In this document: positions 30,458 through 35,934 of the stretch, one piece after another | Layout: each line of letters starts with the position of its first letter | Position numbering within the stretch: position 1 is the first letter of the stretch | Assembly (NCBI GenBank): GCA_902826455.1 | Contig: CADEEV010000009.1 | Location: forward strand, 77,186 to 126,069 | Direction of reading: 5' to 3' | DNA from: an uncultured Acidobacteriota bacterium | GTDB taxonomy: Bacteria > Acidobacteriota > Vicinamibacteria > Fen-336 | Length of the DNA: 48,884 nucleotides | Program-made: the position numbers and the translations under genes | Notes under the pieces: model-generated | Told to the model about the DNA's origin: nothing | Database searches by the model: none | The model's input: the letters and a program-made list of their open reading frames with translations, nothing else

Positions 30458-31657
30458 CTACTGCAGCGCCTCCACGACGCCCTCGGCGAAGGCCCAGTCG
30501 TCGATCACCTCGCTGCCCGTCGGCTTTGCCCGCGCGCTCCACACGACGATCACGACGCGCGCGGTCGGGTCCACGAAAAGCCTCTGGCCGTAGATGCCGA
30601 TCGCCGAGTACGCGCCTCGGGCGAGGGCCGCGTCGATCGGCGGCGTCCACCAGAGATAGCCGTAGTCGAGAAGGGTCCCGCCACGCAGCGTCTTTGGGGT
30701 CGTGGCCTCGCGCAGCCAGCCTTCGGGCAGGATGCGCTCGCCGCCCGCAACGCCGTCGTTCAGCAGGAACTGACCGAAGCGGCCATAGTCGCGCAGGGTC
30801 GCGCTGAAGCCGCTGCCGCCGATCTCGACGCCGCCAGGCGAGTCCAGCCACCAGTTGGCGTCGTCTTCCATGCCGACGCGGTTCCAGATTCGCTCGTGCA
30901 GGTAGTCCGCGAGCGGCTGCCGGACCGCCGCGCGCAGGATCTCGCCCGCGATCTGCGTCTCGCCGGTGCTGTAGTTGTTGACGGTGCCGGGCTCGCCGGC
31001 TCGGGGCAGCGACGTCATGACCTTCAGGGCGGAGCCGGGCACCTGGGAGATCTGGGCCTCGAGCAGCCGCCGCCGGTCCGACGCCGGATCGGTGTAGGCC
31101 TCGTTCCAGCGCACGCCCGACGACATCATCAACACGTCCCGGACGGAGACGCCCTCGTAGCTGCTGCCCTTGAGGACCGGCACGTACTTCGTCACGGGAT
31201 CGGCGAGGCTCGCGATCGCGCCCTGCTTGACGGCGGCGCCGATCAACGTCGAGGTGATCGACTTCGCGACGGACATGGACATCCAGCGCGTGCGCTCGGT
31301 GTTGCCGAGACGGTAGCGCTCGAGCTTCACGCGGCCGTCCTTCAGGACGAGCAGACCCGTGACCCGGTTGAGCTCCAGGTAGCTCTCGAGGTCGTACGTC
31401 TTGCCACCGTCCTTGAAGCGCACATCGCGCAGCGGATCGGCGTCGACCGGTATGGGCAGGGCCAGGGGCTTGTTCGACCGGGGCACCGTGCGCGTGGGGA
31501 AGAGCCGGTCGATGTTCCGGAACGTGTTGACCGCCAGCTCCGGCGTGAGCGCGCCGTCGTAGACCTGGCGAACGGTGCCGATCGGCTCCACGGCATGAGG
31601 GTAAGGCTCCGGGCTCATCGCCGCCAGCGCGACGGCACAGACGCAGGCGCCGATCAT
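30458..31657 (-). CDS. Serine hydrolase, beta-lactamase class C-like
   Basis: 399 residues. It begins with a hydrophobic signal-like segment (1-14). SxxK is SVAK at 129-132. The second motif, normally Y-x-N, reads YST at 229-231. The third region, near SAIGIYGQRLF, takes the place of K-T/S-G. The whole resembles 6-aminohexanoate-dimer hydrolase/esterase-type members rather than true beta-lactamases. It is probably periplasmic. ATG 31657 overlaps the GNAT stop as ATGA. Confidence 0.88.
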   Translation of the reverse strand: MIGACVCAVALAAMSPEPYPHAVEPIGTVRQVYDGALTPELAVNTFRNIDRLFPTRTVPRSNKPLALPIPVDADPLRDVRFKDGGKTYDLESYLELNRVTGLLVLKDGRVKLERYRLGNTERTRWMSMSVAKSITSTLIGAAVKQGAIASLADPVTKYVPVLKGSSYEGVSVRDVLMMSSGVRWNEAYTDPASDRRRLLEAQISQVPGSALKVMTSLPRAGEPGTVNNYSTGETQIAGEILRAAVRQPLADYLHERIWNRVGMEDDANWWLDSPGGVEIGGSGFSATLRDYGRFGQFLLNDGVAGGERILPEGWLREATTPKTLRGGTLLDYGYLWWTPPIDAALARGAYSAIGIYGQRLFVDPTARVVIVVWSARAKPTGSEVIDDWAFAEGVVEALQ

Positions 31658-32118
31658 GCTCGATCCAGGCGCAGCTTCATGCCTTCGTGGCTGGCCACGA
31701 AGCCGAGGCTTTCGTAGAACTTCTTGGCCGCCGGCCGCGCCTTGTCGGTGGTGAGCTGAACCATCAGGCATCCTCGCTTCCGGGCTCGTTCGATCGCGTG
31801 CTCGAGCAGGGCCCTGCCGACCCCCTCGCGCCGGACTGCGGCATCCACCCGCACGCCCTCGATCAATGCGCGCGACGCGCCTTTGTAGGTGAGAGAGGGA
31901 ATGACCGTGAGCTGCAGCACGCCGACGACGTCGCGGCCGTGGCACGCGACGATCAGCGCGTTGTTGCGGTCCTTGCGGACCGCGTCGAACGCCCGTACGT
32001 AGCTGCGAAGCAAGGGCACGGAGTACCGCTCGCGCGTGGCGCCGAGCGGATCGTCCGCGAGCATGCGCACGATGCACTCGAGGTCCTTGCGAGATGCAGC
32101 CCGGAACGTCAGAGTCAC
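31654..32118 (-). CDS. GNAT family N-acetyltransferase (second)
   Basis: 154 residues from GTG 32118, overlapping the previous stop as GTGA. Motif A is EGVRVDAAVRREGVGRALLE and the C-terminus has KKFYESLGFVASHEGMKL, the classic acetyltransferase pattern with FYESLGF. It resembles GNAT members acting on small amines or amino acid analogues, but the acceptor cannot be read. A longer in-frame start at 32361 lies within the neighbour and is rejected. Confidence 0.9.
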   Translation of the reverse strand: MTLTFRAASRKDLECIVRMLADDPLGATRERYSVPLLRSYVRAFDAVRKDRNNALIVACHGRDVVGVLQLTVIPSLTYKGASRALIEGVRVDAAVRREGVGRALLEHAIERARKRGCLMVQLTTDKARPAAKKFYESLGFVASHEGMKLRLDRA

Positions 32119-33083
32119 CGCGACTGGACCCACTCGACAACCGGCTTGACCCATTCGGGAATCGGCCGATACAGGAAGCCGTGGCTGAGCCCCGTATCGA
32201 GCACCATTTCGCGGACGACCAGGCCCGTGGCCTTCGCCTCCGGAGTCCAGGCTGGGCAGTCGGCGGTCAGCTCGTCCGTGGTCTCCCGGATCGCCAGCAC
32301 ATGGCCGCTCGGAGCCTTGCCCTCGTCCTTGATCAGCGCCTGGACGTTCTGGCTCAGGCACACGCCCATGACGGCGAAGCGCACGCCGGGCTCCTGCAGG
32401 CGCGCCGAGGCGACGAGCGCGGTGCCGCCGCCCATCGAGGCTCCCACGACCGTGACGTGATCGGGCGCCACGCCCTTCCTAAGCAGGGCACGCACCTGGC
32501 CGACCACGACGTCGGCCGATTGGCTGACGCTCGCCGCCTTCGGCCGGATGCCGCCGGTGACGACGAAGCCCTTGTCCCGGAACGTCGTGAGGATCTGCTC
32601 GAGCTCGTAGAAGCCGAAACGCGGCTGCTGCGGCCGAGCGCTCTGCTGCTCCTGGACGATGCGGCCGTGCAGGTAGAGAAGATGACGCGGCGTGTCGGCG
32701 GCGAGGCTGGGAAGCGTCAGCGCCAGGAGCACGAGCGAGGCCAGGAACTTCCTTCGCTTCGCCGGCAGCGAGAGGGCGTGCTCGACACCATGGCCGATCC
32801 AGCGCTCGAGGTCGGCGTCGGCGTCGACGCCCGTCGGCCCCACGAGAAGCAGGCCCTTCATCGGCCGCCCGGTCATGTCCATGACGCGCGCGTGCGGCTT
32901 CCGGACGAGGTCGGCATGGGCGTCGGGGCTGACTCGCACCATGAGCGAGTCCTTGATGATGCCCACGGCCATGTGCCCGTGCACCATGAACACCACGCCG
33001 CCGAACATGCGCTTCTCCACCACGTCGTGGCGGTCGCTCAAGACACCGCGAATGCGCTCGGCCAGCCCTTGGTCAAAGGCCAT
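32115..33083 (-). CDS. Chimeric frame: TfoX N-terminal domain followed by signal peptide and alpha/beta hydrolase
   Basis: 322 residues. Residues 1-112 are a complete TfoX_N/Sxy domain (RMFGGVVFMVHGHMAVGI, DLERWIGHGVEHALSLPAKRR). Residues 107-130 read as a signal peptide (basic KRRK, hydrophobic FLASLVLLALTLPSLAA). Residues 131-322 form a small alpha/beta hydrolase with LLYLHG, GASMGG (Ser216) and a C-terminal LSHGFL His. TfoX domains are cytoplasmic, so a functional single protein would need an internal membrane helix. Two genes merged by loss of a stop and start, or a separate internal start such as CTG 32768, are alternatives. Confidence 0.75.
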   Translation of the reverse strand: MAFDQGLAERIRGVLSDRHDVVEKRMFGGVVFMVHGHMAVGIIKDSLMVRVSPDAHADLVRKPHARVMDMTGRPMKGLLLVGPTGVDADADLERWIGHGVEHALSLPAKRRKFLASLVLLALTLPSLAADTPRHLLYLHGRIVQEQQSARPQQPRFGFYELEQILTTFRDKGFVVTGGIRPKAASVSQSADVVVGQVRALLRKGVAPDHVTVVGASMGGGTALVASARLQEPGVRFAVMGVCLSQNVQALIKDEGKAPSGHVLAIRETTDELTADCPAWTPEAKATGLVVREMVLDTGLSHGFLYRPIPEWVKPVVEWVQSR

Positions 33084-33085
33084 GG

Positions 33086-33538
33086 TCAGAGTGTCTTGAC
33101 ATAGCGAAGGGTCTCCGGCGCATAGCCCAGGTGCGCGTAGACCGCGCGAGCGGCATGGTTGCCCTCGAACACGTTCAAGGTGAGCGTACGGTGGCCCTGC
33201 TCGCGGGCCCAATCCTCGGCCGCCTTCACCAGCGCGCTGCCGACGCCGTGGCCGGCTGCCGCCTCGGTCACGACCAGCATCCCGATGTGGGCGTGGACCG
33301 CCTGCGTGAAGTAGTCCTGCTGCCGCTCCAGGTACACGAAGCCCAGGGAGCCCGCGTCCGAGTCCGCGACGAGCAGGCGCGCGCCCGCGGGAGGCGCCTC
33401 GAAGTACGCCCGCAGCGCGCGGACCTCCGCGCTCACGATGTCCTCGGCCCTGCGCCACGGGGGCGGGCCGAAGCTGGCGAGGCGCCGCGCGGCTTCGAAG
33501 ACGAACGCCGCGTCGGCGGACGTCGCGGGGCGGATCAC
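33086..33538 (-). CDS. GNAT family N-acetyltransferase (third)
   Basis: 150 residues from GTG 33538, which overlaps the DJ-1-like stop as GTGA. HIGMLVVTEAAAGHGVGSALV is motif A with its acetyl-CoA loop, and LTLNVFEGNHAARAVYAHLGY is motif B. Typical of acetyltransferases acting on small molecules or protein N-termini; acceptor unknown. Two bases separate its stop from the TfoX-hydrolase gene. Confidence 0.92.
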   Translation of the reverse strand: MIRPATSADAAFVFEAARRLASFGPPPWRRAEDIVSAEVRALRAYFEAPPAGARLLVADSDAGSLGFVYLERQQDYFTQAVHAHIGMLVVTEAAAGHGVGSALVKAAEDWAREQGHRTLTLNVFEGNHAARAVYAHLGYAPETLRYVKTL

Positions 33539-34637: not shown

Positions 34638-34984
34638 CAACGGCCCTCCAATGCCCGCCACCAGCCGCCGGTCAGCACGAAGCGCGGGAACGTCACCCAC
34701 TGCTCCAGGAAGGTCCGGGCGAGCGCGTTGGCGGGGCTCGTGAACGGCACCGGAGGGTTCTCCTCGCCCTTGTGGCCGCGGCCCTGCAAGGCCATCGAGG
34801 CGACCATGACGCCCAGGCCGATCCCGGACGCGGGGAGCGAGCCGCGAGCCACACCCGCGAGGAGCGTGACGTTGCCGACCAGGAACGCCGGCACGAGCAC
34901 GATGTGCATGAGCAGGTTCGCGCGCGAGCGGTGATAGCGCGGGTAGCCCTCCCACTGCCACTTCAGGAGCTGCGAAGGACTCAT
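34637..34984 (-). CDS. Small membrane protein, possibly Mpo1/DUF962-like
   Basis: 115 residues with two hydrophobic helices (MHIVLVPAFLVGNVTLLAG and GIGLGVMVASMAL). A HRSRANLLMH motif and a GRGHKGEENPPVPF motif resemble the histidine arrangement of the DUF962/Mpo1 fatty-acid dioxygenase family, but the match is only by eye. ATG 34984 overlaps the previous stop as ATGA. Confidence 0.5.
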   Translation of the reverse strand: MSPSQLLKWQWEGYPRYHRSRANLLMHIVLVPAFLVGNVTLLAGVARGSLPASGIGLGVMVASMALQGRGHKGEENPPVPFTSPANALARTFLEQWVTFPRFVLTGGWWRALEGR

Positions 34985-35934
34985 TCCTGGCTCCAGGAGC
35001 TCCAGAGGGGCCCTGCCTTAGGGTGGGAACGGACGCCCTCCCGCAGCTTTCGGATCGTGGCCTCGGCGGCCTCCGGCGATTGCACCCGCCCACGCACGAA
35101 CAGGTGCGGATCGCCGACGACGCGGAAGCGCCCCCGCGTCGCGAACGGCTCGATCTGTTGCACGAGGGCGACGGCTCCCGCCGGCATGCCCTTGGACCAG
35201 CACGTGACGACCAGCGCGTCCACCTTCGAGGCCTGCACCGTGACGTGCCCGGCGTGGGCGAGGGCCCAGGCGTCCCCGGCCTCCATGGCTTCGGCCATGG
35301 CCGCCCGCGCCTCGGCGATGCCTTCCTCCTCCGAGTCGGCCTCGAACCGCTTCAGCTCGCGCTCGTCGCCGCGCAGGACGAGAGCGATCGGAGCGAGGGT
35401 CTCGCCCTTCCGGAGCTCGGACGCGCTCCAGGCCGCGTGGCCCAGCGCGAAGCCCGCCAAGAGCGTCGCGAGATCCGACACGTCCTGGCTCGCGGCCGTC
35501 TCTCCTTCGAACGTGAGCGACGTGAAGAAGCGCCCGTAGTGCGGTCGGCGCGCGAAGTAGTCGGCCGAGGTCGTGTAGAGGGACAGCGTGACGAAGACCT
35601 CGCCGCTGTTGGCGCAGAGCAGGATGCGCCGGGCTTTCTCCTTGTCCTCGGCCTCCTGGATCAGGCCGCGCCATCCGGCGCCGCGCAGCTCGACGGCCGG
35701 GCCCGCGGGCGCGAACGTCTCGGCCTGCACGGCGAACCGGAAAGCCGCGAAGTCCTCGAGCGTGCCTCCCGGCTTCGCGAACGCGGTCATGTAGAGGAAC
35801 TCGGTCTCGTCGGGGCTCACGAACTGGATTGCGGAAGCGCCCTCGACCGGCCCGACGCGCCAGTCGGCCGGATGCTCGAGGCTGAAGCCCGGGCCCGATC
35901 GGACATCGGGCCGGTAGCGGATCCACTCGGTCAT
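34981..35934 (-). CDS. Hypothetical two-domain protein
   Basis: 317 residues, no signal peptide. The N-terminal part (GFSLEHPADWRVGP, with LYMTAFAKPGGTLEDFAAF) resembles PsbP/DUF1795-like domains that start with a short peptide and end in a helix near RFFTSLTFEGE. The C-terminal half (about 165-317) alternates helices and strands, with a Cys in VVTCWSKGMP. Function unknown. Confidence 0.55.
   Translation of the reverse strand: MTEWIRYRPDVRSGPGFSLEHPADWRVGPVEGASAIQFVSPDETEFLYMTAFAKPGGTLEDFAAFRFAVQAETFAPAGPAVELRGAGWRGLIQEAEDKEKARRILLCANSGEVFVTLSLYTTSADYFARRPHYGRFFTSLTFEGETAASQDVSDLATLLAGFALGHAAWSASELRKGETLAPIALVLRGDERELKRFEADSEEEGIAEARAAMAEAMEAGDAWALAHAGHVTVQASKVDALVVTCWSKGMPAGAVALVQQIEPFATRGRFRVVGDPHLFVRGRVQSPEAAEATIRKLREGVRSHPKAGPLWSSWSQE

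Follow-up and report, generated by a model that had tools for sequence, protein, structure and literature searches.

A TfoX_N domain and an exported hydrolase read as a single gene in one Acidobacteriota genome, probably after the merging of two genes

The window, i.e. the whole stretch of 48,884 nucleotides analysed, carries on its minus strand an open frame of 322 amino acids (P0002, 32115-33083) that starts at the ATG in 33083-33081, ends with a TGA finishing at 32115 and contains no internal stop. It comprises three parts, all on the minus strand: (i) a TfoX half, residues 1-109 (32757-33083), which matches PF04993 and whose last residue, K109, is the usual stop point in relatives, (ii) what appears from hydropathy to be a former signal peptide, residues 110-129 (32697-32756), made of RRK, a hydrophobic segment (FLASLVLLALTLPSLA) and a cleavage-like SLA/A, and (iii) an alpha/beta hydrolase half, residues 130-322 (32118-32696), which carries Ser216, Asp270 and His301 and is supported by invariant columns and Foldseek. 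The basic motif KRRK occupies residues 109-112 (K109-R110-R111-K112) and is followed by hydrophobic FLASLVLLALTLPSLAA. Judged by eye, signal peptidase could plausibly cut at SLA/A. The basic, hydrophobic and cleavage-site parts, the hydrophobic one supported by the hydropathy computation, are thus all present, but they are internal, after 109 residues. The hydrolase half displays an HGR motif and GASMGG at residues 214-219. The sequence-only reading, which had seen a TfoX_N domain, a signal-peptide-like segment and a GASMGG hydrolase in one frame, is borne out: from 33083 to 32115, the genes of a TfoX-domain protein and of an exported, esterase-like hydrolase are read as one. In terms of codon-position composition, the two halves share one frame, with a GC3 of 0.91 in the TfoX half and 0.90 in the hydrolase half. 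Since this composition is gene-like in both halves, the fused frame is no chance open frame.

The N-terminal half belongs to the TfoX_N family by domain match, which does not on its own imply competence regulator activity. The Pfam profile PF04993 covers residues 15-103 (profile positions 3-91 of 91) and scores 49.4 bits, well over its cut-off of 30.1. Identity is 44-49% to seven close relatives and reaches 61% among 60 relatives. A PDB search with the TfoX-side alignment gave no match at 0.01, and a plasmid search retrieved five of 72,556 records, all of them matching 32-34% of the query, at its TfoX end. The fused protein shares with the small TfoX/Sxy-like proteins a full-length domain scoring over the cut-off. 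However, these relatives finish at LP(A/P)K or with a short, often basic tail, whereas the fused protein continues into a hydrophobic segment. Among 40 distinct TfoX loci (41 minus L025, which overlaps L020), and as read from the printed tails, the stop lies directly after the equivalent of K109 in 23 and elsewhere in 16, often after a basic tail; in the remaining one (L068 of G389), the TfoX_N gene is interrupted by a stop inside the domain. None of the 40 has a hydrophobic segment behind TfoX_N: the mean hydropathy of a 12-residue stretch does not exceed 1.26 in the scorable tails, against 2.66 in the leader of the window protein. Two of several alignments that extend beyond the TfoX end, L069 (G406) and L074 (G439), were rejected as possible fusions, the frame stopping right after the domain and the locus showing no hydrolase match.

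The hydrolase half scores below the cut-offs of curated models, with at best 15.5 bits against 25 for Pfam, and 15.3 against 400 and 15.3 against 201 for NCBIfam. It is assigned to the alpha/beta hydrolase fold by its relatives and by fold search. When it is aligned with 16 relatives (31-57% identity), S216, D270 and H301 are invariant in all 17 sequences and, from their position and motif, would form a putative Ser-Asp-His triad. The nearest full-length relative (L010) is 58% identical and keeps the three triad columns. Foldseek returned 20 matches at E <= 0.001 (best 1.0e-4), mostly esterases and one dehydroquinate synthase, with low TM-scores (0.25-0.39, query-normalised); the query was a moderate-confidence model (mean pLDDT 65.2, residues 262-322 under 50), for which the alignment rows covered the TfoX half only. 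A search of PDB sequences gave 18 at E <= 1, every one on the hydrolase side, the best at 0.0057. As for the exported hydrolases themselves, the family has a YLHGRI(V/I)E-like start and a GASxGG-type elbow, the 17 sequences share 24 invariant columns, and the window member lies under every Pfam and NCBIfam cut-off; this may be a family without a curated model. One close relative (L055 of G449, 61% identity over its longer piece) is divided between two frames, so that either the gene is broken or its sequence contains an error.

The relatives of the hydrolase locate the other side of the boundary. Among 20 full-length loci (23 minus the partial matches L039 and L041 and the broken frame of L055), 15 carry a hydrophobic leader at most 70 residues upstream, with a 12-residue hydropathy of 2.12-3.18. 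In the other five (L012, L016, L017, L059 and L061), the hydrolase lies behind another Pfam domain, each over its cut-off, and the intervening hydropathy is just 0.67-1.72. Hence, these hydrolases have either a leader or another domain without a leader, whereas the window protein has an internal leader after a cytoplasmic domain. Three of the joins (L012, L016 and L017, from G005, G006 and G011) have the hydrolase follow a metallo-beta-lactamase domain (PF00753, scoring above its cut-off) and seem, by eye, to start with a leader of their own; they keep one topology, which the window fusion does not. Other joins are found behind an esterase (PF00756, L061), behind a FAD-binding domain (PF01565, L059) and before an aspartyl-protease domain (PF13650, L058).

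The boundary placed at KRRK by the sequence-only reading therefore agrees with both sets of relatives, most TfoX proteins stopping at the equivalent of K109 and the hydrolases carrying a leader. Since the TfoX genes stop at this boundary and the hydrolases have their leader beyond it, the window protein corresponds to a complete TfoX gene plus a complete exported-hydrolase gene, minus a stop and a start. Furthermore, the leader is retained at the window join, unlike in the five leaderless joins, which fits an unadapted merge. None of the 65 loci given for the best matches of the relative, class and phylum searches contains both halves: TfoX is matched in 41, the hydrolase in 23, and neither in L040.

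The joined form was found in one of 60 relatives, one of 193 genomes of the class and one of 396 sampled genomes of the phylum, always the window's own genome (G000), which is included in each of these overlapping sets; the class and phylum scans scored at most 11 and 5 candidates per genome, so that a weak fused copy could escape them. Separate genes exist in relatives, a point that the sequence-only reading had proposed to check: both halves occur on different contigs in G005, G012, G523 and G534. G425 has a hydrolase on one contig and a partial match to TfoX on another. A pattern scan of genome contigs, which covers close relatives and may omit very near genomes, gave TfoX-side matches only, in seven relatives. 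A literature search of titles and abstract openings of open papers found no fusion of TfoX_N with a hydrolase. The genus is represented by one genome in the comparison sets, and the fusion therefore rests on a single assembly.

The fused gene is the sixth in a packed run of nine minus-strand genes (35934-29665), which encode, in order, an unknown protein of 317 amino acids, an Mpo1-like protein, DinB, DJ-1/PfpI, a GNAT acetyltransferase, the fused protein, a second GNAT acetyltransferase, a beta-lactamase-family protein and a CAAX-type protease. Neighbours in this run either overlap, by 1 or 4 nt, or are separated by just 1 or 2 nt. For instance, the upstream GNAT gene (33086-33538, minus strand) ends 2 nt ahead of the fused gene's ATG, and the downstream one (31654-32118, minus strand) starts with a GTG in a 4-nt overlap with the stop of the fused gene. 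In so tightly packed a run, a very small change could merge two neighbours, provided that the two genes were once spaced in this way. The 317-residue protein (34981-35934, minus strand) has no Pfam match at E 0.001.

The same tightness means that a very small sequence or assembly error would suffice to produce the joint frame from a true genome with two abutting genes. This explanation is unlikely in our view but weighs more than the other alternatives: the genome is a single draft of 108 contigs and the sole representative of its genus in the comparison, and neither the leader nor either of the domains is damaged. Against it, both halves give a clean codon-position signal and the assembly is rated 100% complete with 0.97% contamination. 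As a mild further argument, seven of nine neighbouring proteins reach their Pfam cut-off (the Mpo1-like protein scores slightly below its own and one protein matches no family), and the stretch is thus not full of broken genes.

We favour, as the probable origin of this gene, two separate genes, probably adjacent and co-translated, that became one frame here through loss of a stop and a start at a tight junction. The first would have been a small TfoX_N gene, and the second would have encoded an exported, esterase-like alpha/beta hydrolase; once the first had lost its stop and the second its start, a single frame would have remained, in which both domains are otherwise whole and nothing else is missing. 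A tblastn search with the 253 open frames of the window covered 12 stretches taken from 10 genomes and found no unfused pair at an equivalent place. Apart from the fused gene itself and frames antisense to it, two similarities appeared: frame 1908-4382 matches L048 (36%), and frame 30461-32266, which contains the beta-lactamase-family gene, matches L050 of G014 (26%), roughly 0.8 kb from the TfoX gene there. This second similarity hints weakly at a shared neighbourhood and is the one exception, itself weak, to the rule that relatives carry the halves at unrelated loci with other surroundings. These unrelated loci and the lack of an unfused pair in the stretches searched speak against the favoured origin, in which the former adjacency of the two genes is inferred. 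The sequence-only reading had proposed two genes merged by a deletion around 32750-32780; the merger stands, as the halves are separate in relatives, whereas a deletion, of whatever size, stays hypothetical, with no unfused pair in the 12 stretches and no second genome of the genus in the comparison sets.

One frame might also yield two proteins, if an internal start produced the hydrolase on its own, as a precursor whose signal peptide is normal. The purine-rich CGA AGG AAG at the join resembles a Shine-Dalgarno site, with an anti-SD pairing of -5.6 kcal/mol that beats 11 of 18 gene starts of the window and, by far, the fused gene's own ATG (-0.2 kcal/mol). In a rough set of window genes, CGA and AGG account for 6% and 5% of the codons for arginine. 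However, such a value is reached by 11% of 23,001 internal 10-mers from 12 window genes, and codons 91-130 contain no in-frame ATG or TTG. The sole GTG (codon 118) and a CTG at codon 114 would drop the basic part of the leader. The CTG at 32768 (codon 106), put forward as an internal start on the first reading, pairs weakly (-2.2 kcal/mol) and is disfavoured by this pairing strength together with the missing normal start codon. Since pairing is no stronger at the ATG of the fused gene itself, it is not decisive on its own against an internal start. On balance, we regard this as the least probable of the explanations considered.

The topology of the product had been called contradictory for one protein. 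This is overstated, because a cytoplasmic domain followed by basic residues, then by a hydrophobic helix and finally by an exported domain, is the order of an ordinary N-in/C-out protein. TfoX_N would lie in the cytoplasm, KRRK and the former signal peptide would act as an internal signal-anchor, and the hydrolase would be exported. If signal peptidase still cuts SLA/A, the hydrolase would be set free in the periplasm while TfoX_N remained at the membrane with a stub, and both ancestral functions could survive. ToxR has the N-in/C-out layout, and the fused protein could likewise be a selected membrane protein in which TfoX_N, anchored by an uncleaved helix, is coupled to a periplasmic hydrolase. 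The basic residues ahead of the helix and the domain order fit such a layout, and the columns invariant among relatives are kept in both halves. This alternative is nevertheless very improbable: the protein was found in one genome only (193 class and 396 phylum genomes), has no linker and still contains a cleavage-like site. To our knowledge, no biological link connects TfoX_N and hydrolase domains.

A bolder extension of the merger, which we consider improbable, would see here a newborn membrane-tethered TfoX_N, i.e. a regulator-type domain joined to a periplasmic hydrolase, either as a ToxR-like unit or as a polyprotein split by signal peptidase into two working proteins. If the fusion is real, a packed gene run can yield a two-compartment protein in one small step, and a retained internal signal peptide could still free the enzyme. 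As a caution, a domain architecture known from just one draft genome may reflect a chance merge or an error.

The preferred reading, a merger of two neighbouring genes, belongs to a known kind of event, the fusion of two genes in one lineage, and represents a tidy case rather than a new system. The 'deletion-born fusions' of PMC12803068 are described as joining distant gene fragments through adaptive deletions. As in those fusions, two coding stretches have given one new frame in one lineage. However, they join distant fragments, whereas the window gene joins two whole domains, probably of adjacent genes.
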